Origin: Myxococcales bacterium
GTDB taxonomy: Bacteria; Myxococcota; UBA727; GCA-2721815
Assembly: GCA_002721815.1 (NCBI GenBank)
Contig: PBLQ01000001.1
Coordinates: 158,379 to 222,378, forward strand
Length of the DNA stretch: 64,000 nucleotides
Direction: 5' to 3'
The translations under genes and the position numbers were made by a program. Under the pieces are notes generated by a model. The model made no database searches, was not told the origin of the DNA, and saw only the letters and a list, made by a program, of their open reading frames with translations. How positions within the stretch are numbered: the stretch's first letter is position 1; each line of letters starts with the position of its first letter. Positions 1,223 through 57,310 of this stretch are shown here, one piece after another.

Positions 1223-1490
1223 GAAAAATGCCTTTGGTCAGTTAATCCTATGGATATCCAACGCCCATAATCCAGAAAATCACCTTATTTCCTTTAATTG
1301 ACAAACGAGAGGCCTACAATGGCTTTGACTCAGAGAGACTGATATTCCGCTCAAAGGCCTTAATTTGCCCTTGGAGGGGCCAAAACCTTCAAAAAAGACA
1401 AATGGGTTTTTCATTTTTTATATGTAACAGACCACGTATATTTTTTAGTATTCAACGGACTCCGCTCTAAGTGTTAGGACCTCTTTGCAA

Positions 1491-2540
1491 ATGCTTTCGA
1501 ACCTACAATTTGAATCCTTTGCTGCTTTATTAAATGGTGCGGCAACCATTCACGGCCTTGATGCTGTTCCCGCCTGGCAGAACCCAAGCCAAGGTTTCAA
1601 GGTGCTACACCCGACCTTAAGAAGCATGGGAGGTCACAACCTTGGACTTTTACTCAAAATCGGTCTGGGTGAAGAATTAGAAGCCGGGGAAAAAAAGCAA
1701 CTCCTCTTCAACTCCCTAACACGACAACAAGTGGCCCAAAAAATCCAGGTGCAGTTTTTCGATCAATCCATTCGGTTTGCTTTTGTCAAAGGAATCGCAC
1801 AAGACGCGAAATACTGGTCTAACCTACCGGCAAGAATGTATTCCGATATCGATATTTGGGTGCACCCCCATGACTTTAACGCTGCACAACAAACTGTGAT
1901 GTCATTGGGCTACGAAAAAATTCGACCCGTTCAAAAATTACCACTCACGCATTTACAAGTCCCAGCCTTGTTCTCTCAACAAGCGAACCCGAAAGTCTGT
2001 TCCATCGACATGCACCCTGTACCCTTTGACGGATTTAGACGGCCAAAAGAATGGGACAATATTTGGGGGCGGACAGAAACGGTGGAAACGAGCGTCGGTG
2101 TCAGAACGGTCTTGCCACCTGAAGACGAGATACTTTTTTGGGCTGGCAATCAACTCAAATCTTTATTTGGACAATGGCCTAAAGCCTGTCTCGATACCTT
2201 TGTCATGATCCAACGGGAGAATATCGACTGGCACTATCTTCAACAGGCGGCTCGAAACGCGAACTTGGCCTGGCCCCTTTGGGCCTTACTCAGCATGCTG
2301 AATAGTTTCCACATTGATATCCCTCAAAAAATTCTTGAAGATTTGGCCCCGCCCCAATTCATCGCAACGCATCTTTATGGCTGTATGAGTTCCCAAAAAA
2401 AAGCTGGCCCAAGTCGGCTCGATTCGGGCTTACGCGTTTTGCAGGTACTTGGGCTCAGTCAAGATTGGTTTGGCTCACTACATTACGGACTGAACTGGCT
2501 TCCCAAAAGGATGGTCGAGCAATTGTGGTTGAGCCGGTAA
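1491..2540 (+). CDS. Nucleotidyltransferase of the PF14907 type, RiPP-associated
   Basis: Uncharacterised nucleotidyltransferase-fold protein of about 349 residues. Near residue 100 it has the family signature: FVKG, then about 15 residues later R-MYSDIDIWV with the paired metal-binding aspartates, followed by a GYEK strand and an IDMH segment. Members of this family recur in peptide-modification clusters beside PqqD and HPr-kinase-like proteins, including lasso peptide clusters; that is family knowledge. The gene converges on the radical SAM gene with a one-base gap between stops, which supports membership of the same locus. ATG at 1491 is used; a TTG two codons earlier (1485) is better spaced from AGGA and is a real alternative. 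The substrate cannot be read from sequence. Confidence 0.8.
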   Translation: MLSNLQFESFAALLNGAATIHGLDAVPAWQNPSQGFKVLHPTLRSMGGHNLGLLLKIGLGEELEAGEKKQLLFNSLTRQQVAQKIQVQFFDQSIRFAFVKGIAQDAKYWSNLPARMYSDIDIWVHPHDFNAAQQTVMSLGYEKIRPVQKLPLTHLQVPALFSQQANPKVCSIDMHPVPFDGFRRPKEWDNIWGRTETVETSVGVRTVLPPEDEILFWAGNQLKSLFGQWPKACLDTFVMIQRENIDWHYLQQAARNANLAWPLWALLSMLNSFHIDIPQKILEDLAPPQFIATHLYGCMSSQKKAGPSRLDSGLRVLQVLGLSQDWFGSLHYGLNWLPKRMVEQLWLSR

Positions 2541-2541
2541 T

Positions 2542-3654
2542 TTAGTTCACGGGACTGGTTTTCATTCGGTCCCAATGTGCTTGATGAATTTGTGCCATGT
2601 GTTTTGATGTTACGCTACAGCCGAGATGGTCTTGGTTCTCTACTTCCGCCATGCCTTGACATGGGTGACACGTTTTCTGGTTCTCACACGTGTTACAACC
2701 ATTCTCGGAAAAGTCTCGATACGTCACGCCGCGAACCTTGTTCATGATGTACGACTCATTCCATATTTTCATGAGTGGTTCTTCCAACATATTTCCCGCC
2801 GAAATTGGATAGGCGGTACAAGGAAACACCTCGCCGCGCGCATCCACCACCAGCGTTGCCGCCCCAGCCCCACAAACTCGTTTGTCGAGATCTCCGTAAT
2901 AATTCCCTTCTCCGGTACACGTATTCTCATAATGCGCCAGGGGCTTCGCCGTGGGGTACAAGAAGGAATTTCCGTGAACCTTCTCCGCAATTATTTCAGG
3001 GGCAACAGTGAGGTTATTTGGCTCTTGATCGCCATTCACGCGGGAATGCACGGTGGGACTCATCTGAAAATGAGCACCGTGCGCATTGGCCCATTTTTTC
3101 ATGTCCTCTAAATCGTCGATATTGAACGGCATGATGTTGGTTTTCACCACGGTTGGTATACCGTATTTTTGTAAAATTTTGACCGCATTCTGGGTGCGAC
3201 CATGCGAACCGGGCCTTTGCGTAAAATCGTCATGATCTGCGGCTTTAGAACTGTAAAGAGAGACTTCTACGCGGCCCACTTTGAGTTCTTTGATTCGCTT
3301 GGCCTTGGCTTCATTGATATGGGTACCCGAAGTTAACAGTTTTACCCAAAATCGCTGTCGCCGTGCTTCGGCCACAATATCCAAAACATCACGCCGTAAA
3401 AAAATTTCGCCACCCGAAATAGCAAGGTACATGACCCCGAGTTTTTTGAGTTCAGCAAAAATCTTTTTATAATCGTCTACGCTCAAACGATTACCTGTCG
3501 GGTGCGTTTCTTCACTCTCGTAACAATGTTTACATGCCAAATGACATTTATGTTCCACATATACCAGCGCACTGTTCGCGTACGTCACGGGTTTCACACG
3601 GCTGTAATCTCTCAACACAGCACTTGATTTTTTCGAACCAATTTGAATTAGCAT
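2542..3654 (-). CDS. Radical SAM/SPASM peptide-modifying enzyme
   Basis: Radical S-adenosylmethionine protein of 370 residues. The [4Fe-4S] motif is C37-x3-C41-x2-C44 (CHLACKHC), followed by the SAM-binding AISGGE near residue 100. The C-terminal third carries a SPASM-type cysteine set (CTGEG, RVCGAG, VFPCTAY, NGCNTCENQKTCHPC, LGC) that would hold auxiliary clusters. Such enzymes typically crosslink or otherwise modify ribosomal peptides. The start is preceded by GGTGGA and overlaps the kinase stop by 7 bases, so the two are translationally coupled. The likely substrate is the 48-residue peptide at 4674-4820. Which bond it makes is unknown; thioether or C-C crosslinks are possibilities, not readings. 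Confidence 0.9.
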   Translation of the reverse strand: MLIQIGSKKSSAVLRDYSRVKPVTYANSALVYVEHKCHLACKHCYESEETHPTGNRLSVDDYKKIFAELKKLGVMYLAISGGEIFLRRDVLDIVAEARRQRFWVKLLTSGTHINEAKAKRIKELKVGRVEVSLYSSKAADHDDFTQRPGSHGRTQNAVKILQKYGIPTVVKTNIMPFNIDDLEDMKKWANAHGAHFQMSPTVHSRVNGDQEPNNLTVAPEIIAEKVHGNSFLYPTAKPLAHYENTCTGEGNYYGDLDKRVCGAGAATLVVDARGEVFPCTAYPISAGNMLEEPLMKIWNESYIMNKVRGVTYRDFSENGCNTCENQKTCHPCQGMAEVENQDHLGCSVTSKHMAQIHQAHWDRMKTSPVN

Positions 3655-4580
3655 GTGCTTTCCACCCGGCTGAGAATATCATTAAATACGTCGTCGCTAC
3701 TGAGATCTTTAAGGTCCCTGCGAACCACAAAACAGGGCAAGCTCTTGCATGCGGTCAAACTCAATTCTAGAGCCTTTTGAATCACCATTGGTTCCTTCGA
3801 GTATTCAACAACCTGCCGAACCAGCCGCTCAAAAGCCTCTTTCATATCAATGGGCACCACACTCGTACCCGACTTGCTTTGCTCTAAAAAAGCAATCGCG
3901 CGCAACCTTGCGGGATGGGGCCGTGTCACATTCGGCCAAAACATTTTACGAGTGGCGCAAGGCGACACAGAGAGATGTGAATCACGGCTAAAGTTAATCA
4001 AAGCAACATCGTCCGCTTGAGCAAACACCCTGTTAAAACCGTTACTCAAGGTGGTTTTCCCTGTTCCTGAAGATGCTGGAAATAGAATGCCTGAGGAACC
4101 ATGAATCCCAAGAGCCCCATGTACATAGAGCGCCTTGTCTTCCAGTAGGGCCTGAGTCACACATGCGATTCGAAAAGCAGCTTTAAGCGCCTTGCCTGAT
4201 AAAATCGTCTCCTCATTGCCTTCGATATCTGGCGACAAGGTAATATCGAACCTTCGCTCTGCCATATTGAATACAGCCCGATGAAGACTTCCCACGCCAA
4301 ATTCAAAAGAATTCATCTGATTCGTGAGTTCAAAAAAGAAGCCGTCTGAACTGTCTTGAGGGCTGAATCCTTTTCCATACGAAATCGTCGTCTCTAAAAA
4401 CAAGTCTTCAGCATTCGCTGCCTCCGACGCATTTGTCCACGCAAAAAAACGGTTCAGGCGCCGCCAAACTGCTGGTGGCATGCTCTTGAAGTCGAACCAA
4501 TACTGGTTGTTCAATCCAAAACGACCAGTAACCTCGGCTGCGGTCGCCACAGAAGAAAAGTCTTCGGGGTCCAATCTCAT
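3648..4580 (-). CDS. HPr-kinase-related ATP-binding protein (HprK-rel/PadeK-like)
   Basis: P-loop protein of 310 residues in the HPr kinase-like family that accompanies PqqD-type chaperones. It has Walker A PASSGTGKTT near residue 168, the preceding YVHGALGIHG strand typical of HprK folds, and QADDVALI with acidic residues suited to catalysis. It is not bona fide HprK: no PTS genes are nearby. In the lasso peptide paeninodin a kinase of this kind phosphorylates the C-terminal serine of the precursor (established knowledge), and the peptide encoded just upstream here ends Thr-Ser-Ser. ATG at 4580 is chosen over GTG at 4583. The stop overlaps the radical SAM start by 7 bases. Confidence 0.8.
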   Translation of the reverse strand: MRLDPEDFSSVATAAEVTGRFGLNNQYWFDFKSMPPAVWRRLNRFFAWTNASEAANAEDLFLETTISYGKGFSPQDSSDGFFFELTNQMNSFEFGVGSLHRAVFNMAERRFDITLSPDIEGNEETILSGKALKAAFRIACVTQALLEDKALYVHGALGIHGSSGILFPASSGTGKTTLSNGFNRVFAQADDVALINFSRDSHLSVSPCATRKMFWPNVTRPHPARLRAIAFLEQSKSGTSVVPIDMKEAFERLVRQVVEYSKEPMVIQKALELSLTACKSLPCFVVRRDLKDLSSDDVFNDILSRVESTC

Positions 4581-4673
4581 CACATTTATCCAAACAAAAT
4601 ACGTTTTTGAGCAGGAACTGATTAGCTCCTAGCCAGACGTTATTTTACGCTCGTTTCCAATCGACCAGGTGTT

Positions 4674-4820
4674 TTATGAACTGGTCGGCGGATCTTCTAG
4701 GCATTCATCTTCCGACGCTGTCTCATTGCAGGCCAACGTGGGGTTTTGAAAAGCATCATCTGACTCGATGGTCGGCTTGATGTATTCGCGTTTTAATTTT
4801 TCATTTTCATCGTGTTTCAT
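4674..4820 (-). CDS. Candidate RiPP precursor peptide, 48 residues
   Basis: Short frame with a GGAG Shine-Dalgarno just before its ATG, 20 bases after the stop of the giant surface protein and 93 bases before the HPr-kinase-like gene. The N-terminal half (KREYIKPTIES, residues 10-20) contains Y13-x2-P16-x-I18, the YxxPxL/I pattern that PqqD-like recognition elements bind in lasso-type leaders. The C-terminal half (from about residue 28, TLACNETASEDEC) holds Cys31 and Cys40, is acidic, and ends PPTSS. The surrounding genes (PqqD-like chaperone, radical SAM/SPASM, kinase, nucleotidyltransferase) are what a precursor would need. No homologue was recognised, so the call rests on context and motif. 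The leader/core boundary is not determined. Confidence 0.7.
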   Translation of the reverse strand: MKHDENEKLKREYIKPTIESDDAFQNPTLACNETASEDECLEDPPTSS

Positions 4821-4840: not shown

Positions 4841-7800
4841 TCAGGGCGATCCATAGACAACCCAGACTCTCCCGTCCTTATAACGGGCGAAAACCATTTC
4901 ATAAAATCCATCACCATCCAAATCCCCAGCGACGCCAGTTTTGGCATACTCACTTGCCACATGGCCGGTCAGCTGAGTGCTGTAACTCGTTGCGATAACG
5001 CCTCGATTGTTCACGTTGGTGCTCCCGAAGAACACGTCAAAGCCACTGCTCGTGGCCGCCGCAATATCCGAAAGTCCATCGCCATTAACGTCCCCTGGGA
5101 CGGTCGCTACACTGCCTGAAAGGCTCAATGAATCGTAGTTGACATCGTAACAGTTGCTGGCGCTCTGAGCATCGCTAAATGTACCATTGGACGATGCCAA
5201 GTAAACAATGCCACCTTGGCCGACGCCTTTGCCCGCCACGTACATGTCCATCTTGTCGTCGCCATTAAAGTTACCGGGATGAATTAATGCACCCAGCTTG
5301 GTGATGGTTTTCGTACTACAAGCGCCGGTTAGAATGGTGGTATCCCCATCCGTCAACGGGTCTACCGTCGCATCCCATGAAGCACGGCCGTAAACCGCGA
5401 CAATCACGCCATTGTCACCGTAGTCCTCAGACCCCAGCGCGAAGTCGGCGTAACCATCGAGGTCAACATCGCCCAAACCTGATACGAATTTATTATCCGA
5501 AAAATCGGAACCATCAGGAAGGCCTGCGATTTCCACCAATCGACCGGCGGGCAATGGTGAATAAACATCAGCGTTGTCACATGCCGTGGTGGAAAGACAA
5601 ACCGCACCGCTGTAGTCACTGAAGGGCCCGAGGACAATGTACGCGTTTTTGCTGGTGGCAATGACCATATCTTCGTGCGTATCGCCATTCACATCGCCCA
5701 CACTTGAGAAATAACGAATGTTATTGGTGTTGTTAAGCGCCAGCCGCAAACTGGGTGTCAACGTCGCACCGTCGGAATATCGGCTAGCTGATCCGTAAAA
5801 GATCTCGACCTCTCTTTTACCTGTAGTGCCGTTTTTAGAGGTTGAACCCCAATCGGCGAGTGCATCCCCGTTAATAGAAGACAGCATATTGATAGCCGCA
5901 GAGAATAATGTATTGCCCGTGTCAGAAGCGACGCCAACAGCAGTTAAAGAACTCAAATCCGAGCTACCGTAGGCCACCATGACCTCTTTGGTGTCATAGC
6001 GAGAAAAGATCAAATCGTCTTTTTGGTCTCCATCGATATCGCCGGCTTTTGCTGCCATTTTGGTCCCGTATGAATCTGTGCCCTCATCATCATCTAAAAT
6101 GGCAGTATTCAGGGCCAAAGAAACACTTCCTGTGGTGACATTAGAAACATTACCCACATCATCTTTCGCTCGAATCATGAAGTACCACGTATTATCGAAA
6201 GCGTATGGAGAAACGGTAGCGGTTTGTGACTGCCCTGCGCCTGTGGATGACACGCCAGAAACGGCAGCATTGCTATCCGAAAACAAACCAACCGTCGGCT
6301 CACTGCCCGACTGCGCTACGATTTCCAGTGCGGTTTGAATGTCACCGACGAAACCATCATCGCCAGGCCCGGTAAAGTTCAACGTTACTTCTCCTTGGCG
6401 CACTGCATCCACCCCTGAGGCTACGGAAACACTCAGATCCGTAGTAGGTGCGACGGTGTCTACGTTGGCCGTGAAGGAGGCCGAACCCGTATTCCCAGCT
6501 TCGTCTAAACATGACGCGGTAATGGTGACGCCGTCAGCATCAGCGATGCCTGTGCTGCCCAATGAGATGGACAATGTGGCCGGCGAGTCACTGGCGATGG
6601 TGGTTGACGCGATAAGCGATTCGCCCTGTGAAATGGACAATGCGTTATCCAAACCGCAACCCGACCAATCTACCGCGAAGGAACCTTGGTAGCCCGGGGT
6701 ACCGGTGTCTGTATCGGCCAAACCGGTTAGGGTCTGATTGTCACTGTCATTCACATTTTCAGGTGCATTCTTATGCAGGTAAATGGTGTAGCTTTCCATA
6801 CCGGCGGTAATGGCGGGCGAGGAAAAGCTGACGCTCGGTGCCACCAAATCTACCGTATAAGGATACGCCCCACTGGTGCCACTTTTCCCCGGTGTTTCAA
6901 TATTGGTAGAGTCCACTTCGATCTCAAAGTAGCCTGCGGTGCCATTGTTAAAGGTCGTTGCAGAAAACGAAATGCTACCGTCAGATGCCACGGTCACTGT
7001 TTCCCCTTGCGTCAGGGCTGTATCATCACCAGGGTCCGTTCCGACAAATAAGGTGGCATTCGAACCCTCAGGTGCGTCTGTGGTCGCGGTGATGAGAACC
7101 TGAGCCCCCTCCGTCCCGGGGTCCGTATCCTCTGTGAGGCCAATCTGACGGCCGCCCGTCCCTGTCCGGCTTGGCGAATTTAAGGTTACGCTGTGAAAGC
7201 CGGTATCGATGATAAAGTTGTAGGTTTCACCAAATGCCGAGTTGCCATTTTGATCGATGGCGTAGGATTTCACCAAGTGCGAACCTGCCTGAGTGAAACG
7301 AACCATAACCTCTAGCTGCTTGTAATCATCATCCGTACTGGTGGTCGGCACGGTCACCCAGCCCACGCAGCCGCCTAAACCAATCTCATCATTACAAAGC
7401 TGGATACCATTTTCTTTCTCCTCGTCGAGCAAATAGATTTTTTGGCCCGCAGTAATATTGGCGTATAGGATTTGGTAAGTTCGCTGAATGTAGCCGTAGT
7501 CAGAACTGGCACTCGATCCATTGGGGTGCGTAGAAAGGTTTTCAGTGTCAGAACAACAGGCCACGGCTTCAACATTAACTGGTGGTTCTTCACAGGTATA
7601 GTCAACCCCGCCGAGACAGTCGTCTTGCCCAGCCCCAGTACCGCCGGTACATGGGTTTTGTTGGGTACCACATGAAGCATCACCTTGGATAAGCATCAAT
7701 GGTGCCACCGGATCGGCAAAGAATGCATAGTTGTCATCGGCATCACCGAAGCAGGTGCCATTACAGCAGGCATTGTCTGCGCAACTGCCTGTGGCGTCCA

Positions 7801-10800
7801 CATTACTCGTTCGTATGTTTCCGGCGGAATCGGTACAGGTCACGTTGAGGCTGTGGTTGCCTTGCTCAAAGGTGAGTCCTGCGGTTGTTCCTGGGAAGGT
7901 AGAAGACCCGCCGTTATAGCCCGCTGCGCTGTCTGCTGTCGCAACAACCGTATCGCCATTGGCCAGCACAATACTGGCGTTGTCGCTGTCAGAATCAACT
8001 TGCACCTCGTATTGCAGACCAGCAAGGCTGGGCTCACTATCGTGAACGGCACCGCTTTGGGGTGAAATAAGCAATGGGTTGTGACGCTCAGAAATAATGG
8101 AACAATCAGGCGCCACGGTGTCCACGATTAGGGTTTTGGTGTTCGTCGTGCTGTCTACAGCATTGCCCGCTTGGTCCGAAACTTCAACAGTGATGGTGTG
8201 GGTGCCATTGGCCAACACCACATCTTCGAAATCCACCCGCACAAGATTACCGACACCAGTCGCAGTCGTGGCATCAATGGTCTGGGACTGAACATTATTG
8301 TTCACAATACTGCTCACATTCAAGGTTGCGGTCTGTCCAGCCTCGACCGAACCATCAATAGTAAAAGAAACACCAACGTCTGTGGTGAAATCGCCACTGG
8401 AATCGCCGTTTTCAGCGAGATTGACAGTCCCCTTCGGTACATTGTCGCCGGCGATGACAATATCGCCAATAACCGGTACCTCAGTATCGATCAAAAAGTC
8501 GCGAGCCAGTCCGCCGTAAGCAAAAATGTCGTTACCCGCACGATCTTTGCCACCGACACGCAGGTTAAAACTACCCTCTGAAGAAAAATTCGCGAAAAAG
8601 GTACACCCATAAAGAAGCTTGATGGTTCCATCTACATTGTAGAGGTCGGGTGAGCAGGTGGCACTTCCTGTGGGACTTCCTTGCTCCACCCAATCCGCCA
8701 GCGGCGTTTCAGTGGCAGCGTTCAACAGTGTCGCAACAGACCCGCCCATACCTTTGAGCGTGATATTGACTTTGGCTTGGGCCCCAGTGACATCCGCCTG
8801 GTAATCAGCTCCCGCATTTACAACGGTATCCACAGTCCCCCAGAAAACCACCGGGCTAACCATGTCAATACCAACGGTCAGATTCGTGACAAGTGTATTA
8901 TTATTGGTATCGGTCAGAGTGAGCTCAACGGCAACAGAGTCGTCGTCAGGTGGGTTGGTCCCGTCATCAGCGTAATTATTTTGGTCATCATCAATCCACC
9001 GAGTGGCCCCGGGCATCAATACCAAATCCGTAAACTCTGCAAGACAATTTTGTCCCTGCAGGCTCCACGCCCCCCCGGAAACACTGGCTGCATCTGCCAC
9101 AGTAATTTCGGGCGTGCCATACGGACAAGCGCCATTCTCTGCCGAGACAGAGACCTGCAACGTCTTTTGATAATCTGTATCCGAATCACTTTGAATTGCA
9201 GTGGTGAAACAATAATCAGCGAACGTTTCGTCATAGCAGGCCGGGATCGCGGTTGATGAGTCACCCACCATGGCCATCAAACCGTTCGGTACGGGTGCTT
9301 CCGTATCGGTCGTGACGCTTTCGGTGTCACGCAAGCCACCCATACTGGAGTGAATCACCTCCGCGGTAATGGTCGCGCTCCCCTGAGGCAATTCGGCATA
9401 GGCCGTTCCGGTACTGTCTCCGCCAATCAGCGATGAATTGTCCGTATAGGTGATGGCCCCATTCGCATCTTTCACCGTGATGACGATGGCATCGTTGGTG
9501 CAGGAGTAATTACCCGACGATAATGACTTGCTGGCGGCCACAACCACTGGCACACGCCAACCAGAACTCCCCGATTCCCCCACATTAGAGGTGACAATCA
9601 CTGCGCTCAGGTCAGCTGAGCCGGCGATTGAGGTGATGCTGGCGTTACACAGAGGCGAGTTGTATCCGGTGACCGTCGTGTTAATGATATTTGAGTTACT
9701 GATGTTACCACTAGCGTCTGCCACGGTAGCGTATACAGCACGTGTTCCATCGCTGGTGTACTGAACGCTAAAGGTGTTCACGGGATTGTTACCGTCAACC
9801 GTTTGAGAGGGCTGCGGCGTATCATTGACGTAGAGCAGAGCCGTTTGGCCTTCGATACCATTGCCTGCCGCAGTCACCACGTAGTTCACCGTCAAGGTGG
9901 TATCCTCGGCCCCCACCACACTGTGATCAGCAGCGGATGAATCGTTGACAGTGAGCACTGCCGATGGTGCCACGACGTCAAGGCCCAGTGTGATGCCGTC
10001 GTTGTCTTCTTCCGTTGCAGCCCAGGTGGCAATGTTCCCGGCGCTATCGGTGACCGATAAGGAAACGGCAACCGTTTCACCGTCTGGGCTGACCGTATCG
10101 GAAAGCGTAACGTCATCAAACGAGGAACGGCAGGTACCACCGGTCAACTCAAAAGCGGAGCCATTCAAAGCCCCACTGGGCAACGTGAGAACCGGCGCAT
10201 CGAAAGGACAAGCGTCGTTTTCAGCGTTCACCGTGACGTAAAGGGTGTGGACAAATGCTGATACACTGCTGGTTTCAGCCCCCGCCAACATGCAATGGTC
10301 GGCAAAGCCAGTTCCACAGGTATTGAATGCAGTGTCGGTACCGTTCTTTACCCAACCCGCAGACAGTCCCGCAGGGGCTGCGGTGTCGACAACGATGGGA
10401 TAGCTGGTGGTGGCCCCATCGACACCGCCCACAGCAATGGTGAAGTCTAAGTCGTTACTGCCCTCGGGAAGATTGAAGTTTTGGAGATTCAAGGTTTGGC
10501 CGTGTGCAACGCCAACCGTGGTCTCGGTGCCCCCCACGGCGACGGTAAGAATACCTGATGCATCGGTGAACTGTCCGCAGTCAACGACTGCAACGAGATA
10601 TCCTTGTAAACCCTCAATTCCGGCTTGATGATCATCGCTTGGGTTAAAGCTGTTACTTTCGGTGGTACTCAACACCGTACTCGCAAAGGTGGGGCTCAGG
10701 GCTGAGAGCGAGGAAATACTGCATCCGACAACCACGGTACAAACATCTGCACCGTTTTGCTCAATGCAATCGACCTCTGTGGTAGTAAGGTTAGAAACAG

Positions 10801-13800
10801 TGGACGTGCTGTTCCCCACTCGGTCGGTGGCTTCGACCCAAAGATTCTGGGTGGATGAAGAAAAGAAGGTCACCCCAATGCTGGCGTCTGAGTCAGAGGC
10901 CGCATCTGCGGTGCCCAGGAGCCCGAGAGTCTGAGAATAGAGAGATATTGCTTGTCCAGCGTCCAAGTTAGAATGGGCCACTGTGTAAGTCGCCAAAGCG
11001 CCCACATCAGACTGAGCAGGCCCGGTGAGAGACAGGGTAGGCGCTTGCCGATCAACGACCCAATCCACCGAGAGCTCAGCGCTGTTACCGGCGGTATCAA
11101 CCACCACCAAGGCGATATTACCAGCGGTATCATCGGGTTCTGCGTTACCCGGTACCAAAACGGCATCAGAGAAACTGGATCGGCACTGTGAGCTGCCATT
11201 AACTGCCGACCACGTGCTGCCACTGATAGCCGTTCCTGAATCCACGGTAAGAGTTGGGGTGCCAAGACGGTCACAAGAGCCACTTTCAATGTCAGTCAAT
11301 ATAGCAAAGCCGCGGCTGTAATCGGAATCAGAACCAGAAGCGTTACCACTGGACGCGTCAAAACATGATTTCGTGGAATCAAATGCACATGAAGACAGCG
11401 CACCTTGGGTGTTATTTTCGAACGTGACCAACGAAAGCCCAGAAGCGGCTACAGTATCCACATCAATGGATTGGGTATCCGTGCCTGCGGCTAGCCCGGC
11501 CTCTTCAATGCTGGCCCGCAATGACACGCCTACACCATCGGGGATTGTCACCGTAATGTCTTCGCTCACCGTCCCAGCACCAGCGGTGAAGCTGGTGACA
11601 AAATCAGTTTGGTCGTTCACACGGACCTTAAGCGCTAAAGTACGCGCATCGCCACCATCGGGGTTTGCACAATCGTCGGAGCTCACATTTAATACGGTCT
11701 GAAAGCCTGAAGCATTGCTGTCGGCATCATCCGCAGCATTGCAAATGCCATCGCCACCACAAATCGTCCCGATGTTGGTGATGGTGGCATCACAGCCGTA
11801 CGACACGAGACCTTCGATGCTCACCGTAATTTGGGCGGTTTGTCCTAAGTTTCCATTGGCATCGTAAGTTTCAGCCCAAATTTTCTCACTGGCGGAGTTC
11901 GCATTGTAGGACAGGGTCAAATCTACAAAGCTTTGGTTGGCATCCACGGGTGCCACGGTAGGCGTAGATTGTTGCGATTCAGTGTAGAGCTTGATTTTAC
12001 AGTTGCCGTCTGTTTCCGACGGGCAGTTTTCATCGACATTCTCGTAACCCACTCGGAAGACCAACTGAAAACCGGCAAGACCGGTATCGGCATCATGAGA
12101 ACCTTTATTGAAAACTTGACCGTTCCCGAAAGCCTGAGCGGAACCGTTGAGAAGCCAGCTCAGCGAGACGGTGGGCACCACGGTATCCACCGTAAACGTG
12201 TAGGGATCGGTGGAGGCAGTGTTACCTACTAAGTCTTGGCAATCAACCGTAAAACTGTGATCGCCCTGTGCTAGAGCGGGCTCCACGAAGGTCACTTGAC
12301 CGTTTGAAATCGTGGCATCGGCAATGATGTTCCCGTTATCTTTTAACTGGAAGGGTGTGGTCACCCCATTGGCGCTGTCATCAAGGGAAACCACAAAATC
12401 CACTTGCACACCATCACCGAGATTGGGGAAGTTCTTATCCGCGGTTGGACCAATCACGGTTAGGAGCTGGCCATTTTCGGCTGGTGCGGTGAATTCGCAG
12501 GGAGGGGGTACTGTGTCAACGTTAAGGACTAAGGCTGCCGACACGGTATCCGTGTTGACCGTATTCCCCGCCGTGTCCACTGCCGAAATGGTGAAGGTCT
12601 GAGAACCTTGGGACAGGGTGATGCCATAGCAAGTGGCGCCGCCTTCAGCCACATAACATATTTTCTGCCCACCAGCGCTGTTGTTCACGGTGATGGGACT
12701 CCCGTCTTCTAAAACAGCATCTTCATTGAATAAAATTGTCAGGTTGGTGAACACCGTGTTCTGATTGCCATTGTTTTCGGCCAGGGTCACCACACCATCG
12801 TTGTTGGCATCGATAGCAAAATCAACGCTTTCGACCTCGGGGGCTGTCACGTCGATGGTGAATGAAACAGCCGCAGATGTGCCCACGTTGCCGGCACGGT
12901 CTGAAGCTTGAATGGCCACCGTATGAGTGCCATCGCTGGCAATGGTGATCATCCCGGTAATTCCGTCTGTGGTGTTAGGCGGCATAAGCTGGGCAGAGTA
13001 CGTTTCGGTGGTGGCCGGTTGTCCATTGAACAGGAAGGAGAGGGTCGCGCCGTCTGCGAGGCCCACCGCCGCCGACAGTTCAACGCCCACTTGCTGGCCC
13101 TCTTGATCAGGGTCGTCATCTTTATCTGCGTTGTAGGAAGCCCCTTCGGTGGGCATATCGTTGGCAATGGTTAAAGTAGGTGCTTGCACGTCGATGCCTA
13201 ACGAGTAGGCCAAAGTAATGCTATTTGCCGCTAAATCTGCCACGGTGAACTCAAGCGCAACCGTTTCCCCGTCGGGACTCGCCGTGGTGGCATCCAAGAC
13301 CACGGCCGCAAAAGTCGCTCGGCATTTGCCGTTATCGGAATCTAAAGCCCAGACGGCACCCGTGGTGTCATCCACGGTTTCTGGGGTGAGGGTTTCCACT
13401 CCGTCAGAGTCGCCACCCAAGACTTTGAGCGTAGGTGTGGCCAAAGAGGTACAGACACCGCCCTCCGCGTCCACCTCTAAAATCAAATCTTCGACAAAGG
13501 AATCCGTAGCCGTATTGGTGCTATTGCTCAGGTTGATGCAACCATCCGCAAAAGTTGCATCGCCGCAAGCCGCTGCATTGGAGACCGTGGCGTTGCTAGG
13601 CGCATTGGAGTCCACCACCACCGTAATGCTAACGGGCTCGCCGGTAGACACCCCGGTGCCCACGGTGGCCGTAATCGTATTGGTCCCCTCGGCCAGGGTC
13701 ACGTCACTAAAATCTGCCGCGCTGGCCGTGAAGCCTTTGGCCGGCAATGTGGTGTCGCCATCGGAATTGGAGACACTCAACGTGACTTCTGCGTTGCTGT

Positions 13801-14989
13801 TGTTCGCGCAGTTGGCTGAACCCACGGAAACATTGAGTTGAAAACCTTCCAACGAGGTATTGGCATCATCGTCGGTGCCATTTAGTAACAATTGCTCACC
13901 GGACGGTGCGATAAAACTGGCCTCACAGGGGATGAGAATGGTGAATGCAATGCTGTTCGAAACAGAGGCGTCATCCTCCAGTTCAACACTCAAGGTTTGA
14001 TTGGAACCTTCGGTGGTGGCCGTGAACTGTAAGGACCCCTCTCCGTTCACCAAAGCAGCGGTCACAGGCGCGCTGCCATTAAATGAGACTCTGATGTTTT
14101 GGCCCGAAACAGGAACCCCCGTGCTCAAAACCCCACCACAGGTTATGGAGGCTCCGAATTGAAACCCCGCAGTGTTGGCATCGGCATCGGTGCTCACAGT
14201 GCTGTTATTTTCAGGTGCAGTAAAAGTGCAGTAAGGCGCATCACCGACCACCGGCACTTGAACATTGACAGTAACGGTTGCGTTCACGTTGGGCTCATCT
14301 TTGAGACGAACCATGAGGTTGGTGTTGCCCGAAGCTGCGATGGTGGGGCGAAAGGTGACAGCGCCACTGGACAAGGTGCCTTGCAGCACTTCGGAATCAT
14401 TCACCACCAACTCGACCGGGGCCGAGGGGCTCAATGAATCACCGGTGCAGGCCGCGCTCACGGCCAATTGAAATCCCGCAGCGACAGCATCGGCATCAGT
14501 GTCGATGGTATCGCCTTCAGACGGTGCGGTGATGGAACAAGAGGAAGCAGTGATGGAGCCCGTCACCGTGACATTATCGCTGGTGGCACCTTCTGCGGAA
14601 ACGGTAAGTTGGTTCGCTGTACCCGCTTCGGAGGATAAGATGGTCACGCCGACGAAAGTCGCGGTGCCATCGTTCACCTTCATTTTTGTGCTGGAGCCCT
14701 CCGACTGGTCGTTGGTCAATGACACTTCGGTGATGGGTTGACCTTCAACTTCGTCCTCCACCTTCACCGATACCGTGACCTGGATGCCGTCCGTGAATGG
14801 GTCTTCATCATCTGCCACAGACACGGTCGCAGAATCCGCCGGAGTGGTGATGGTCAACTTGGCCTTGGCCGGCTCCTCTTCACCCCCACAGTTACAACCT
14901 GGACTCAATACAAACGCTGCAGTGAGCGTCCCAAAAAGAACTTTCTTTACCAGGTGGAAAGCGGTTGGGTTGGTGTCATTTTTTTTCAT
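4841..14989 (-). CDS. Giant secreted Ig-like/FG-GAP repeat protein, 3382 residues
   Basis: Exported surface protein. ATG at 14989 has GGAG seven bases upstream; the frame extends 20 codons further without a ribosome site. The N-terminus has a basic region and hydrophobic stretch ending LSPGCNCGG, a loose lipobox, so it is probably an exported lipoprotein. Most of the length is Ig/cadherin-like modules recognisable by endings such as DTVAPT and SDQAGN, with two alternating cysteine-containing module types. A cysteine-dense insertion lies near bases 7550-7800. The last 370 residues (about 4850-5960) are six FG-GAP/VCBS blades with calcium-type motifs such as GDVNGDGLSD and GDLDGDGF, predicting a beta-propeller. 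Adhesion is a reasonable guess. It lies in series between the PqqD-like and precursor genes. Confidence 0.9.
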   Translation of the reverse strand: MKKNDTNPTAFHLVKKVLFGTLTAAFVLSPGCNCGGEEEPAKAKLTITTPADSATVSVADDEDPFTDGIQVTVSVKVEDEVEGQPITEVSLTNDQSEGSSTKMKVNDGTATFVGVTILSSEAGTANQLTVSAEGATSDNVTVTGSITASSCSITAPSEGDTIDTDADAVAAGFQLAVSAACTGDSLSPSAPVELVVNDSEVLQGTLSSGAVTFRPTIAASGNTNLMVRLKDEPNVNATVTVNVQVPVVGDAPYCTFTAPENNSTVSTDADANTAGFQFGASITCGGVLSTGVPVSGQNIRVSFNGSAPVTAALVNGEGSLQFTATTEGSNQTLSVELEDDASVSNSIAFTILIPCEASFIAPSGEQLLLNGTDDDANTSLEGFQLNVSVGSANCANNSNAEVTLSVSNSDGDTTLPAKGFTASAADFSDVTLAEGTNTITATVGTGVSTGEPVSITVVVDSNAPSNATVSNAAACGDATFADGCINLSNSTNTATDSFVEDLILEVDAEGGVCTSLATPTLKVLGGDSDGVETLTPETVDDTTGAVWALDSDNGKCRATFAAVVLDATTASPDGETVALEFTVADLAANSITLAYSLGIDVQAPTLTIANDMPTEGASYNADKDDDPDQEGQQVGVELSAAVGLADGATLSFLFNGQPATTETYSAQLMPPNTTDGITGMITIASDGTHTVAIQASDRAGNVGTSAAVSFTIDVTAPEVESVDFAIDANNDGVVTLAENNGNQNTVFTNLTILFNEDAVLEDGSPITVNNSAGGQKICYVAEGGATCYGITLSQGSQTFTISAVDTAGNTVNTDTVSAALVLNVDTVPPPCEFTAPAENGQLLTVIGPTADKNFPNLGDGVQVDFVVSLDDSANGVTTPFQLKDNGNIIADATISNGQVTFVEPALAQGDHSFTVDCQDLVGNTASTDPYTFTVDTVVPTVSLSWLLNGSAQAFGNGQVFNKGSHDADTGLAGFQLVFRVGYENVDENCPSETDGNCKIKLYTESQQSTPTVAPVDANQSFVDLTLSYNANSASEKIWAETYDANGNLGQTAQITVSIEGLVSYGCDATITNIGTICGGDGICNAADDADSNASGFQTVLNVSSDDCANPDGGDARTLALKVRVNDQTDFVTSFTAGAGTVSEDITVTIPDGVGVSLRASIEEAGLAAGTDTQSIDVDTVAASGLSLVTFENNTQGALSSCAFDSTKSCFDASSGNASGSDSDYSRGFAILTDIESGSCDRLGTPTLTVDSGTAISGSTWSAVNGSSQCRSSFSDAVLVPGNAEPDDTAGNIALVVVDTAGNSAELSVDWVVDRQAPTLSLTGPAQSDVGALATYTVAHSNLDAGQAISLYSQTLGLLGTADAASDSDASIGVTFFSSSTQNLWVEATDRVGNSTSTVSNLTTTEVDCIEQNGADVCTVVVGCSISSLSALSPTFASTVLSTTESNSFNPSDDHQAGIEGLQGYLVAVVDCGQFTDASGILTVAVGGTETTVGVAHGQTLNLQNFNLPEGSNDLDFTIAVGGVDGATTSYPIVVDTAAPAGLSAGWVKNGTDTAFNTCGTGFADHCMLAGAETSSVSAFVHTLYVTVNAENDACPFDAPVLTLPSGALNGSAFELTGGTCRSSFDDVTLSDTVSPDGETVAVSLSVTDSAGNIATWAATEEDNDGITLGLDVVAPSAVLTVNDSSAADHSVVGAEDTTLTVNYVVTAAGNGIEGQTALLYVNDTPQPSQTVDGNNPVNTFSVQYTSDGTRAVYATVADASGNISNSNIINTTVTGYNSPLCNASITSIAGSADLSAVIVTSNVGESGSSGWRVPVVVAASKSLSSGNYSCTNDAIVITVKDANGAITYTDNSSLIGGDSTGTAYAELPQGSATITAEVIHSSMGGLRDTESVTTDTEAPVPNGLMAMVGDSSTAIPACYDETFADYCFTTAIQSDSDTDYQKTLQVSVSAENGACPYGTPEITVADAASVSGGAWSLQGQNCLAEFTDLVLMPGATRWIDDDQNNYADDGTNPPDDDSVAVELTLTDTNNNTLVTNLTVGIDMVSPVVFWGTVDTVVNAGADYQADVTGAQAKVNITLKGMGGSVATLLNAATETPLADWVEQGSPTGSATCSPDLYNVDGTIKLLYGCTFFANFSSEGSFNLRVGGKDRAGNDIFAYGGLARDFLIDTEVPVIGDIVIAGDNVPKGTVNLAENGDSSGDFTTDVGVSFTIDGSVEAGQTATLNVSSIVNNNVQSQTIDATTATGVGNLVRVDFEDVVLANGTHTITVEVSDQAGNAVDSTTNTKTLIVDTVAPDCSIISERHNPLLISPQSGAVHDSEPSLAGLQYEVQVDSDSDNASIVLANGDTVVATADSAAGYNGGSSTFPGTTAGLTFEQGNHSLNVTCTDSAGNIRTSNVDATGSCADNACCNGTCFGDADDNYAFFADPVAPLMLIQGDASCGTQQNPCTGGTGAGQDDCLGGVDYTCEEPPVNVEAVACCSDTENLSTHPNGSSASSDYGYIQRTYQILYANITAGQKIYLLDEEKENGIQLCNDEIGLGGCVGWVTVPTTSTDDDYKQLEVMVRFTQAGSHLVKSYAIDQNGNSAFGETYNFIIDTGFHSVTLNSPSRTGTGGRQIGLTEDTDPGTEGAQVLITATTDAPEGSNATLFVGTDPGDDTALTQGETVTVASDGSISFSATTFNNGTAGYFEIEVDSTNIETPGKSGTSGAYPYTVDLVAPSVSFSSPAITAGMESYTIYLHKNAPENVNDSDNQTLTGLADTDTGTPGYQGSFAVDWSGCGLDNALSISQGESLIASTTIASDSPATLSISLGSTGIADADGVTITASCLDEAGNTGSASFTANVDTVAPTTDLSVSVASGVDAVRQGEVTLNFTGPGDDGFVGDIQTALEIVAQSGSEPTVGLFSDSNAAVSGVSSTGAGQSQTATVSPYAFDNTWYFMIRAKDDVGNVSNVTTGSVSLALNTAILDDDEGTDSYGTKMAAKAGDIDGDQKDDLIFSRYDTKEVMVAYGSSDLSSLTAVGVASDTGNTLFSAAINMLSSINGDALADWGSTSKNGTTGKREVEIFYGSASRYSDGATLTPSLRLALNNTNNIRYFSSVGDVNGDTHEDMVIATSKNAYIVLGPFSDYSGAVCLSTTACDNADVYSPLPAGRLVEIAGLPDGSDFSDNKFVSGLGDVDLDGYADFALGSEDYGDNGVIVAVYGRASWDATVDPLTDGDTTILTGACSTKTITKLGALIHPGNFNGDDKMDMYVAGKGVGQGGIVYLASSNGTFSDAQSASNCYDVNYDSLSLSGSVATVPGDVNGDGLSDIAAATSSGFDVFFGSTNVNNRGVIATSYSTQLTGHVASEYAKTGVAGDLDGDGFYEMVFARYKDGRVWVVYGSP

Positions 14990-15082
14990 CGGGTTTCTCC
15001 GGTTGGTCTTGATATCTCGTTTGTGCCAAAGGCGGGCCGTAACCGCCATAAAAAGACAGTAACAGCCTATAAATGTTTTTTA

Positions 15083-15370
15083 TTACAAGGGATTAGAAAT
15101 GTCGGCCATATCCAACATTCCCTTGGATTGGGACTCGTTAACGAACGCCAAAATGTCATCGCGCAATTGAGTTTCGCTCACTTCGTATTCGGCTTGCATG
15201 GCTTGGAAAATGGCCTCCAAAGTTTGGGTGCCATCTGCGCGATCCCAAATGAATGTGGCCGTTGGGTTTAAGTTGTGCATTTTTGAATCATCGGGCGTGA
15301 TCACAATGGCCTCACCTTCGATGGTTCGCGTTGGCGTTTCAGGGTTCTGTCTCGGATATTTTTCCCACAT
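15083..15370 (-). CDS. PqqD-like peptide chaperone (RiPP recognition element)
   Basis: Small winged-helix protein of 95 residues of the PqqD family, which holds leader peptides and presents them to modifying enzymes. The pattern is clear: EGEAIVITPDDSKMHNLNPT, then TFIWDRADGTQT with the conserved Asp-Gly, and a C-terminal helix ending SKGMLDM. Translation most likely begins at 15370, where GGGAG lies 6-7 bases upstream; the frame is open to 15403 but without such a site. It is first in the minus-strand series that continues with the giant surface protein, the candidate precursor, the kinase and the radical SAM enzyme, and 93 bases separate it from the next gene. Confidence 0.88.
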   Translation of the reverse strand: MWEKYPRQNPETPTRTIEGEAIVITPDDSKMHNLNPTATFIWDRADGTQTLEAIFQAMQAEYEVSETQLRDDILAFVNESQSKGMLDMADISNPL

Positions 15371-15382
15371 AAATAGCTCCCA

Positions 15383-15409
15383 ATGGTCCGGGATCGGGAC
15401 CATACTATA
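15383..15409 (-). promoter_or_regulatory. Candidate promoter -10 and overlapping operator upstream of the PqqD-like gene
   Basis: On the minus strand TATAGT at 15409-15404 resembles a -10 box (no good -35 found). It is followed at once by a perfect inverted repeat, ATGGTCC-N7-GGACCAT, at 15403-15383, which ends two bases before the Shine-Dalgarno at about 15381-15377. A start site about seven bases after the -10 would place the repeat over the start point, as for a repressor operator; it could equally form a leader hairpin that limits ribosome access. Seen directly: the repeat. Inferred: its use. Confidence 0.5.
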
Positions 15410-15470: not shown

Positions 15471-16586
15471 CTATTGGCCGCTGAGAAGCCCGTCGATGGA
15501 ATTGCGAAGCGCGTCGGCATCCAGGCTTCCAAGATGTAAAAATCGCACCCGGCCATCAGGGCCGACCAGGTAAGTCGTGGGCAAAACCTGCAGGCCTACT
15601 TTTTGGGCCAAGCCACCACTGTCCACCACCGATGTGTAGAGGGGGTCCGAGCTTTGTAATACCGCTTTCGCTGCCGGTAAATTACTGGGCTCGCGATTGA
15701 CACCAACCACTCTAACCCCTTGTTCCCTATAGTCTTTTGCTATTTTCTCGAACTCGGGCAGGGCTTTCATGCAGGGGCCGCACCACGAAGCCCAAAAGTC
15801 GATAACCAGTATTTGGCCCTCTTGCGCCCCAAGGTTAAGCTGCCCATTCGAATCCGACGGACGCGCCTTCAGCCAAGGGAGATTCAAGCTGGGGAACCGA
15901 TCACCGACCAAAACGGGCTTGAATTGATCGATTTTGCCTAAATTCTGGGCCAAGGCCCCAACCCACAGCATGCTCAGCACCACCGCCCAGGTCGCGAGGC
16001 CCCAGCGCATATTTTGCACAGGCTTAGGCATATCCATGGATCTTTTCCAGCGCCACAAGACGCCCAGTCCCACCAAAGAAGGCCATGCGAAAGTGATCCC
16101 ACTTTTCACCGCATATCGGAACCATTGCAGTTCGCCACCCACCCAAATCACCGGCGAATGAATGGGTCGATGGGGCAAAGCCCAATGGTCCAACCCAGCC
16201 AAGGAAAAAATGCCGCCTATCGCCAACAAAAATGCAAAGGGTATGAGCAGATAAGCACAAGCGTTAAACAAACGCCAAATGGGCAAAGACTTTTCCAATA
16301 AAACGCGTGAAGCCCCGAAAAAGATCACCACCCAAGCGGCCAGAAATAAAAAGATGCTTTGCCCCTGGAACGCAACCAAATCCAACAACTTTTGCAAAAC
16401 CCAAAAAGGTCTTTGCTCAAAAAAAACAGACGCCTGATGCAAGGCTGGCAAATGCAATGCAGCAACGACGACGACAAAAACCCAAAGGGGTTCAAAAAAG
16501 TCGCCCTCTTTCTCTCGGGTCAAACGATCGAGCTGTCGAACCGGAGACAAAATCATGCCAGCCAAAGCTTCAACCATGCTTCTCAT
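15471..16586 (-). CDS. Yip1-like membrane domain fused to a TlpA-type thioredoxin
   Basis: Protein of 371 residues. About residues 1-215 form a Yip1-like membrane region with several hydrophobic helices (FVVVVAALHLPAL, LFLAAWVVIFFGAS, LIPFAFLLAIGG). After a final helix near 205-220, residues 230-371 are a thioredoxin/TlpA-like domain with the redox motif FWASWCGPC near residue 270 and the cis-proline LPTTYLVGPDGR. The thioredoxin domain should face the periplasm and reduce or exchange disulfides there. The start overlaps the tadA stop by 17 bases and has AAGGGA upstream. It is last in the acyl-CoA dehydrogenase-tadA operon; supply of reductant to the neighbouring cysteine-rich surface proteins is possible but unproven. 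Confidence 0.85.
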   Translation of the reverse strand: MRSMVEALAGMILSPVRQLDRLTREKEGDFFEPLWVFVVVVAALHLPALHQASVFFEQRPFWVLQKLLDLVAFQGQSIFLFLAAWVVIFFGASRVLLEKSLPIWRLFNACAYLLIPFAFLLAIGGIFSLAGLDHWALPHRPIHSPVIWVGGELQWFRYAVKSGITFAWPSLVGLGVLWRWKRSMDMPKPVQNMRWGLATWAVVLSMLWVGALAQNLGKIDQFKPVLVGDRFPSLNLPWLKARPSDSNGQLNLGAQEGQILVIDFWASWCGPCMKALPEFEKIAKDYREQGVRVVGVNREPSNLPAAKAVLQSSDPLYTSVVDSGGLAQKVGLQVLPTTYLVGPDGRVRFLHLGSLDADALRNSIDGLLSGQ

Positions 16587-54400: not shown

Positions 54401-55713
54401 ACCTCGATCAACTGGATGGCTTTTGCGCGCATCTTCGCGAAAGGCTTAAAGGAGCCACAACCGGCTCTCCCATACGAACCCTTCTTTTGGAACAAGTCGC
54501 AGACATCGAAGGACAACTCCTAAGAGGGCCCTCCACGCCCGCGTCGGCATCTGCCCGCATCGAGCCCGTCTCAAAAACCGCCACGCGACACGAGCAAGCT
54601 GCAGCCCTTTTAATGGATGCCAAAGAGTACGATAAAGCCATCAATGCGATCCGACAATGTATTGTACAAGACATTCGAAGCACCACTTCATGGCAAAAGC
54701 TTTTTGTATGTGCTCAAAAAACTGAGAACGACTGGCTTCTCTTGCAAGCTGGCGCCGGCCTTGTGGCGATGAATTTAGCAACTGCTGAACTCACTGAAAT
54801 TTTTGCCAACCGCGAGATGGTGGGCCCCCAATTACCTGCCTCGTTGCCTACCGCCGAACGGGTCAACAGGCTGATCACCCACCCACTTCATGCCAATCAA
54901 GCAGAACCACTCCTCACAGAACTCTCACTCACCATCCCAAAAATATTTGGCAAACCTTTAAACGAATTGGGACTAGAGCAGCAAAATCAACTACGGCCAC
55001 GCGACCTCTCAGATACTTGGCAACAGTCGCTGCAAACCGTGTATCAACTCCTTCATTTTGAAAATAAATTGAGCCTTTTTGAAAATCATCAACCCATGGC
55101 CATTGATGCCATCTTGGCCCCCACCTTTCCCCCGTCGTTGGTGGTAGAGCCCAAATCACGAACCGAAAACATTTCCCTTCAAAGCGTGTTTTTCATGGCG
55201 CGGGCTCTTTATTGGGCGCAACCACAAACACAATTATTAACGCTTTTACGGCTCGATGAATTACGAGGCGTGATAACAGCTTTAGGTGCATTTCTACTCA
55301 GGCAGGCCCCACCGAGCAGCGCCCAGGCTGCTTTGCGCATGGGGCAAAAATTAACCAACGTCTATCTCAAATCAGGTCCGAAGAATGAGCGAGAGAAACG
55401 CCAAGAATCACTGGCCAACAAAGTCAAACAATTACGCGATCATGACATTCGAAAAGAAGCTCAGAAACATTTTCAAGCCACATCGCTCTCCAGCAACAGA
55501 CTGGCCCTATTGCTCACAGGTGACCTGCTCACCGCGATCAGCAGCCTCGCTCTGCTTCACCAACGCCCTGTGCAACAAGGTAATTCCTTGGCCATCCGCG
55601 ATTTATTGGGATTTGGAATCAGTGACGGGCTGCAAAAAACACGCGCACAAATGGGAATGGTCTGCGACCCCATTTTGATCAGCAAGCTGTATCAGGTTTC
55701 TCGTTTGGGTTAG
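51460..55713 (+). CDS. Giant TPR-type scaffold protein, 1417 residues
   Basis: Cytoplasmic-looking protein of helical repeats. TPR-like pairs occupy about residues 1-285 and 490-1130 (for example ESAFSAYQQALKCNPNRSLA, AKKALERLLGLVESPIEKA). Between them, about 285-470 is a polar, acidic and Ser/Pro-rich linker. The last 300 residues form a distinct domain (SVFFMARALYWAQPQTQLLT; NRLALLLTGDLLTAISSLAL), a layout I associate from memory with myxobacterial TPR proteins. The TAA of the kinase abuts its ATG, so it is probably the kinase's scaffold or substrate; the linker is a good phosphorylation target. No signal peptide. Confidence 0.82.
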   Translation: MTSENLYIKALRQGAAPHELHVLELQIIEDASTDRLIELLNTEIAELTGKRARLHQLTLANVRLATTLAARSQNDTSKIALNAAIDAARIWWRTLNDAEKAKRMQLRALWLAGIHFPETLEDSINAANGPQAALHLLRQTIQNGHELAMDFSHILLDILKNHGAPKKILLEALKALRKWPHNAAFHLKVRSYAELTQKAEEALFPLKDLLEKHPNDPTITSLVLESIGKMHQILQDDESAFSAYQQALKCNPNRSLAWQYGQQLSEKLNLPFDFPKPPDATLTEGMAVTMSPQRSEEETVRSRNMLSQESTSPGNSFSASLHSLEEQDILELHSVPPSLSPPPLPQDSEEQPPVLPEPDQHDDFDHIWQAERQRLSMDAESVSEARPIKDNPGTATLVSVPSWEMSESDTSFEEETEVQRAELSETSTQVGFFRKGNNHKQPASVTSSEESDIDDTPDNTQFELAIDATGTQLAYDLLRDQEPQQISAIWRHKLFQKLMEQDKQHHNLLSLHPQVLALLQEGFADVVKWVTIYFSRLNEADRSSVPDLWVKTLELLDEDHPLDGKLTPLILKAAAAQSSLTEKVYALADNCHEPTLKRKIFKSILPLWPHEEGVNQTYAKLARNTEAFPSEHFEICEEWAETCPDTIDAQKALLRAAQQHGKPQHAKKALERLLGLVESPIEKAAQWSALAEHYWLQSPDYWKEAATACVQAIGYEPNNLDHWVAFILKCEDKLGVNEAQAAHALLSNPNEALLSELRQFLDPILLDLGDDHELLPPELRKIIGLLLGMNPKDPAKACEILSSMVDDFSDDLSILETYAHLLAIHGLKPKPTPLNHLETILSSHAEAIDTMQQLSLWGDLGTVRWSAGDSSGALSAFQKLFGLLQHDADNPSPAIPERVLDTAFSVLNSPEHKEDHTGLLIATLELKAQHQSKMESASSLKRALALASKHDAAKAKSIFEQLPLDLLDASTLESGRKTYDNLDQLDGFCAHLRERLKGATTGSPIRTLLLEQVADIEGQLLRGPSTPASASARIEPVSKTATRHEQAAALLMDAKEYDKAINAIRQCIVQDIRSTTSWQKLFVCAQKTENDWLLLQAGAGLVAMNLATAELTEIFANREMVGPQLPASLPTAERVNRLITHPLHANQAEPLLTELSLTIPKIFGKPLNELGLEQQNQLRPRDLSDTWQQSLQTVYQLLHFENKLSLFENHQPMAIDAILAPTFPPSLVVEPKSRTENISLQSVFFMARALYWAQPQTQLLTLLRLDELRGVITALGAFLLRQAPPSSAQAALRMGQKLTNVYLKSGPKNEREKRQESLANKVKQLRDHDIRKEAQKHFQATSLSSNRLALLLTGDLLTAISSLALLHQRPVQQGNSLAIRDLLGFGISDGLQKTRAQMGMVCDPILISKLYQVSRLG

Positions 55714-57137: not shown

Positions 57138-57310
57138 CATCACCTCCAAGTTGCGCTTATATCGATTTCTTGTCTCTCTCGCCCCCGAACAATGACCGAT
57201 AAGCCTGTTTCAGATCCTATTATCGTCAACGGCCCCTGGCGTTTGCGTGAATTTTGCCTTCTGTCGGTAAAAACAGGAAAATTGCGCGAAAATGTGTCAG
57301 ACTGCCGAGG

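Follow-up and report, generated by a model that had tools for sequence, protein, structure and literature searches.

The window analysed here, 64,000 nucleotides of Myxococcales DNA, holds a 48-codon frame that was left uncalled between a very large surface-protein gene and a gene for an HprK-like kinase. The question raised by this locus is whether the frame encodes a real peptide and, if it does, whether that peptide is the substrate of a kinase/radical SAM RiPP system, as an initial annotation had claimed. The features central to the question are as follows.

4674..4820, minus strand: predicted precursor peptide, 48 aa (ribosome site, dN/dS, conserved position and leader)
4841..15049, minus strand: giant Ig-like/FG-GAP protein, 3402 aa, likely a lipoprotein (Big_13, FG-GAP; SPGCNCGG after the signal)
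15083..15403, minus strand: PqqD-like discrete RRE, 106 aa (PF05402, E=9e-19; D83 and F87 conserved)
3648..4583, minus strand: HprK-like kinase, 311 aa (conserved residues, fold, weak ScmC match)
2542..3654, minus strand: radical SAM/SPASM enzyme, 370 aa (PF04055 and PF13186 above cut-off)

The short frame is a conserved gene

Among the window ORFs, the frame runs on the minus strand from an ATG at 4820 to a stop ending at 4674, and translates as MKHDENEKLKREYIKPTIESDDAFQNPTLACNETASEDECLEDPPTSS (48 aa); a plus-strand reading of 4674-4820 contains 4 stops and was ruled out. An AGGGAG ribosome site lies 4 nt 5' of the ATG, the frame begins 20 nt past the stop of the 3402-aa giant ORF, and the HprK-like ORF begins 91 nt downstream. 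The residues singled out in the initial annotation are all present as described, namely Y13, P16 and I18, the core cysteines C31 and C40, and a C-terminal T-S-S ending in Ser48. A scan for promoters and terminators near the peptide found no signal beyond that of shuffled sequence. The genome has one copy each of the peptide, the kinase and the PqqD domain, the last being the RRE at 15083..15403.

Scans with a single sequence (the kinase against genome contigs, the radical SAM protein against viral contigs) gave no confirmed relatives, the sequences being too diverged, and relatives were instead reached by neighbourhood and profile searches, which succeeded. Nine were found without use of the peptide: a kinase search gave one same-order genome (G002), a PqqD search over 195 Myxococcota genomes together with a radical SAM search gave L026, L028, L030, L031, L033 and L036, and a PqqD scan of named contigs gave L049 (a Myxococcales MAG) and L041 (a candidate division TA06 MAG). 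Gene calls in the relatives were mechanical. The G002 locus is syntenic with the window (TlpA, PqqD, giant lipoprotein, a 59-aa peptide reading ...KKRRYQKPMLRSGSAFERFALSCTG...CNGS, two radical SAM/SPASM genes, kinase). In the six loci from the PqqD and radical SAM searches a short YxxP frame comes after the giant gene, in L049 the peptide sits between the giant gene and the kinase, and L041 has the cassette and peptide with the giant gene absent. A YxxP frame is found within the cassette in 9/9 of these relatives and directly after the giant gene in 8/9. This is more than chance: among 849 ORFs of 35-75 aa from nine such loci, just 18 have YxxP within the first 40 residues.

Further loci came from peptide-profile searches, in which the motif is present by selection and the position is not; weak profile matches without the cassette (L085, L087, L124) were excluded from the counts. 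Considering all loci with the giant gene and sequence past its stop, 31 Myxococcota loci have a peptide of 40–61 aa with a YxxP leader, starting -16 to +46 nt from the giant stop. Pairs of related peptide copies gave dN/dS of ~0.23-0.76. The claim of an uncalled frame with a ribosome site is thus borne out by the AGGGAG, the dN/dS values and the conservation, with the minus strand added here: the frame is a genuine gene. A spurious frame with no product, to which its shortness and the lack of any match to Pfam or NCBIfam models might point, is already refuted by this phylum-wide conservation of position and sequence, by the ribosome site and by dN/dS <1, and we give it practically no weight. 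The homologue search that the initial annotation called for shows the short YxxP frame conserved beside the same enzymes, which answers its key question. We also looked for lack of a conserved frame, drift of the YxxP motif and a different precursor, and nothing found on these points refuted the precursor claim.

The usual gene order is PqqD-like RRE, giant lipoprotein, peptide, HprK-like kinase, in some loci radical SAM/SPASM, and an archaeal-type signal-peptidase-like gene. The PqqD gene lies just upstream of the giant gene wherever the locus sequence extends there, and the kinase lies at most ~110 nt downstream of the peptide in most loci; it follows the radical SAM gene in G002 and L125, is on the opposite strand in L077 and L083, and is elsewhere in the genome in L028. 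On inspection of the sequence, electron-transfer-flavoprotein-like genes flank the unit in L026, L031, L033, L076 and L080, that is, in several Myxococcota families, as if it held a fixed chromosomal place. The one locus outside Myxococcota, L041:2611-8583 (NGFL01000012), is compact, with radical SAM, kinase, PqqD and radical SAM genes, an LxC precursor (see below) ending in HST and a signal-peptidase-like gene.

The leader and its predicted recognition

4767..4793, minus strand: leader K10-R11-E12-Y13-x-x-P16-x-I18, putative RRE-binding motif (consensus of 34 precursors)

Across 34 precursors the Tyr and Pro of YxxP are invariant, K/R stands at -3 from the Tyr and V/I/L/F/M at +5 in all 34, S/T at +7 in 30, Pro at -1 in 22 and Glu at +8 in 19. 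The YxxP-type leader of the initial annotation is therefore a family-wide YxxPx[VIL] motif, usable for genome mining.

A candidate reader for such a leader is encoded in the same unit. The closest described comparison is with the linear polyphosphorylated peptides (LPPs) of Bacillota, linear phospho-RiPPs reported in 2026 that are made by an RRE and an HprK-like kinase (PMC13381572). The profile of the window RRE best matches solved leader-binding domains (TbiB1; 9x8z, an LPP RRE; 9x90, a lasso RRE), and a TM of 0.82-0.84 of target was reached when its model (pLDDT 82) was aligned to complexes of TbiB1 with leader. In the LPP complex, D70 of LppB holds the leader Tyr, and the Pro pocket owes its shape to F74 and N33 (PMC13381572). 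By alignment these residues are D83, F87 and N46 in the window RRE, and in its family the Asp is kept in 29/29, the Phe in 28/29 and Asn or Ser at the third position in 27/29. With a winged-helix PqqD fold, the Tyr-binding Asp and the pocket Phe all present, the window RRE resembles the lasso and LPP leader-binding domains. From this homology, the RRE would bind the leader through K/R-K/R-x-YxxPx[VIL].

The kinase and the phosphorylation site

The kinase conserves H155, G175, K176, T178 and Asp190/191, and H155, K176 and Asp190/191 match the His-Lys-Asp-Asp set that matters in lasso-peptide kinases (PMC9266682, PMC10368454); the first P-loop Gly is replaced by Ala. Pfam support is weak and the structural model has a mean pLDDT of only 59, being confident solely in its C-terminal half, which matches PEPCK and HPr kinase folds. 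The features of an HprK/PEPCK-type kinase (His, P-loop Lys, Asp-Asp and fold) are thus present.

Where it might act depends on the core. One class of cores has an LxC motif, with two or four Cys in most, and comprises the window, G002, L028, L036, L041, L076, L077, L078 (two), L083, L117, L125 and L128. The other classes are YGPFR(D/E)xPRR-like and FQRPPP cores, and LF...C..C cores in large-genome Myxococcota (family f13). The two L078 precursors (G002; L078:9469-9871, minus strand) lie in tandem (…CQGS, …CNGS) close to the end of a contig. The 14.8 kb read there contain none of the cassette genes, and the pair are possibly orphan extra precursors.

A C-terminal Ser/Thr ends 10/13 LxC precursors as against 1/21 of the others (Fisher p=2e-5, from a test that ignores phylogeny and with core classes drawn after inspection of the data). 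The Ser tail noted in the initial annotation is accordingly typical of the LxC class and rare in the rest, and C-terminal phosphorylation, as in paeninodin, is plausible for that class, the window included, and not general. With 20/21 non-LxC precursors lacking a C-terminal Ser/Thr, we rejected the C-terminal Ser as a universal kinase site: the kinase also serves precursors without one and, in G020, the Ser is present and the kinase absent from the cluster. A leader Ser/Thr at Tyr+7 is weakened as a universal site by Glu at this position in L077, L083 and L117, and equally suits a helix N-cap. The known site of BsfK and LppK is Ser3 of the core. We consider it probable that the peptide is phosphorylated. 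The kinase would modify a core Ser, in the LxC class most likely the C-terminal one; for the window we name Ser48 tentatively, at somewhat less than even odds. As in LPP and Bsf work, the RRE would assist the kinase, and the order would be RRE, kinase, leader cleavage.

Core type tracks the radical SAM enzyme

The radical SAM/SPASM ORF overlaps the end of the kinase, and its product carries CX3CX2C and the Cys columns of the SPASM auxiliary clusters. Ten radical SAM enzymes at LxC loci have the SPASM cysteine set full or nearly so, and in the seven from GPFR/FQRPPP loci this set is reduced and includes a CC pair; L126, with an unclassed core, has an enzyme with the full set, and the second enzyme of L041 is of the CC type. 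LF...C..C loci showed no radical SAM gene, this absence, like that of signal-peptidase-like genes elsewhere, applying to the stretches read. Core class tracks radical SAM type.

In the window, the enzyme would crosslink the core, most plausibly by a thioether from C31 and/or C40, and we regard a radical crosslink as rather probable, slightly behind phosphorylation. In radical SAM RiPP pathways the radical step usually precedes leader cleavage.

The peptide could instead be just phosphorylated and remain linear, with the radical SAM enzyme acting elsewhere. LPPs function in this way (PMC13381572), and in relatives from large-genome Myxococcota the peptide, RRE, kinase and signal-peptidase-like gene occur with no radical SAM gene nearby. 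However, at LxC loci the radical SAM gene is next to the kinase or overlaps it, and core sequence follows the type of this enzyme; we consider such a kinase-only route unlikely here. Taken together, the conserved gene unit, the leader, the RRE and kinase features and the tracking of core type with radical SAM type support well the claim that the 48-aa peptide is the precursor of an RRE, HprK-like kinase and radical SAM/SPASM RiPP cassette, to which we assign a probability of about 0.87.

Accessory genes

1485..2540, plus strand, convergent: NTP_transf_5 (PF14907) protein (PF14907, E=2e-19)
15471..16586, minus strand: TlpA-like membrane thioredoxin, first gene of the unit (AhpC-TSA/Redoxin)

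The neighbours listed in the initial annotation (PqqD-like, HprK-like, radical SAM/SPASM and PF14907 ORFs) were all found; what it missed is the constancy of the giant gene in the unit, and the signal-peptidase-like gene. Most relatives have the latter, of the S26 type, and its SMxP or CMxP, followed further on by a His, marks it as archaeal in type; the L041 protein falls just under the cut-off of TIGR02228 (E=3e-13). The window genome has a weaker homologue, unlinked to the unit and outside the window, ~4.7 kb beyond the NTP_transf_5 gene. By analogy with LPPs, the signal-peptidase-like gene is likely to encode the leader peptidase and would cut the leader off, the window genome offering a weak candidate.

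NTP_transf_5 genes are found alongside HprK-like kinases in both lasso and LPP clusters, and the window protein could possibly tailor phospho-Ser further; it is absent from the relatives read, so its membership in the unit is uncertain. The TlpA-like gene is at the same place only in G002 and L126 among relatives. We treat it as a possible accessory, perhaps concerned with disulfides in the Cys-rich giant protein or in the peptide.

Relation to known systems

The window system shares with LPPs a discrete RRE, an HprK-like kinase beside a YxxP precursor, the lack of a cyclase ORF beside the peptide, an NTP transferase (in the window), and a precursor in which a conserved stretch with Phe comes after the YxxPx[V] leader motif and the C-terminal core varies. 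The archaeal-type signal-peptidase-like gene of most relatives would be the counterpart of the LPP leader peptidase. However, the myxobacterial leader, [KR][KR]PYxxPx[VIL]x[ST]E, has only YxxPx[VIL] and the subsequent hydrophobic/Phe position in common with the LPP leader, YxxPxVLxHQxIxFETxxS. LPPs are described as restricted to Bacillota, whereas here the phylum differs, radical SAM/SPASM enzymes occur in two branches, and the giant Ig/FG-GAP lipoprotein is a constant partner. No MsbA-like exporter was noticed among the ORFs of the loci. By reason of its leader consensus, phylum, radical SAM enzyme and giant partner, the system is not an LPP by the strict definition; its predicted mode of action is nevertheless that of LPPs and phosphorylated lasso peptides.

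Phosphorylated lasso peptides (paeninodin, pseudomycoidin and Bsf of Bradymonas; PMC9266682, PMC10368454) likewise have the RRE fold, a YxxP-type leader, an HprK-like kinase with the same catalytic residues and an NTP_transf_5 neighbour. These shared parts would allow a phosphorylated lasso peptide whose cyclase is encoded elsewhere in the genome. Yet the window unit differs in having a radical SAM enzyme and no lasso cyclase ORF beside the peptide, no B2 and no conserved ring acceptor; as the initial annotation held, neither cyclase nor transglutaminase-like peptidase was seen in the cluster, and the only Transglut_core3 matches in the genome are partial, inside ~520-aa frames on other contigs. 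The lasso-like geometry that it proposed, T28 followed by a core Glu eight residues from Ala30, fails: T28, A30 and E37 are not conserved in the LxC class, T28 and E37 differing even in the nearest relative, and the variable cores have no conserved acceptor position or penultimate leader Thr/Ile. The product is not a lasso peptide, and a remote cyclase is very improbable.

NCBIfam models TIGR04248-TIGR04251 (SynChlorMet ScmC/D/E/F) describe an HprK-like, PqqD and radical SAM cassette, and give the best or near-best weak match for the kinase and PqqD protein. Membership was rejected on scores of 24, 41 and 92 bits for ScmC, ScmD and ScmE, whose curated cut-offs are 125, 100 and 400 bits. PqqE, GeoRSP and sactipeptide-type maturases share radical SAM and SPASM cysteines and a PqqD-type partner, but no score approaches an equivalog cut-off, the partner here is a kinase and the precursor is outside the modelled families. 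The novelty claimed for a phosphate combined with a crosslink was overstated, given LPPs (PMC13381572) and the SynChlorMet models, from whose cut-offs the window proteins are nevertheless far removed. What is new is the Myxococcota distribution, the constant giant-lipoprotein partner and the radical SAM-bearing branches; this is apparently a widespread and undescribed myxobacterial peptide-modification system.

The giant lipoprotein as a proposed partner

Another way to view the unit is from its largest gene. The giant gene is a constant part of it in Myxococcota, in that every giant-linked locus read pairs it with the peptide, and a junction this constant points to a function that the two share at the cell surface. 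We lean towards a joint role of peptide and lipoprotein, to which the linkage of their genes points; the product would act with the giant protein, probably at the cell surface.

The constant adjacency, with the RRE gene beside the giant gene, would also fit enzymes that modify the giant lipoprotein itself, the short protein being an adaptor or guide and no precursor. However, precursors of lasso and LPP systems show just this combination of a YxxP leader with a variable core, L041 has cassette and peptide with no giant gene, and the giant protein is probably exported while the enzymes are cytosolic, making an adaptor quite improbable. Returning to the precursor reading, we propose, as a speculation rated below even the Ser48 assignment, a new RiPP family in which a Ser-phosphorylated and radically crosslinked peptide serves as a dedicated partner (ligand, cap or attached group) of the giant lipoprotein from the same operon. 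If this is true, the pairing, which is conserved over much of the Myxococcota, would place RiPPs in a new biological setting. The radical SAM-bearing branches could be the first RiPPs to join the chemistry of a kinase with that of a radical crosslink.

According to PMC13381572, it is unknown what paeninodins and LPPs, the HprK-modified RiPPs, do. In the present loci the HprK toolset is tied to one physical partner in every giant-linked locus, and function thus becomes directly testable. The bsf cluster of Bradymonas sediminis is bordered by an FG-GAP repeat gene, 'presumably not involved' according to the authors (PMC10368454); in the largely open-access literature we found no RiPP/FG-GAP pairing beyond this remark. 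Given the constant pairing in Myxococcota, by analogy that gene may belong to the lasso system. Separately, window positions 55710-57149 (minus strand) encode a 479-aa protein, likely a lipoprotein, in which a Cys-rich repeat (WGYYGDGECDTFCAQPDPDC) recurs several times almost unchanged.
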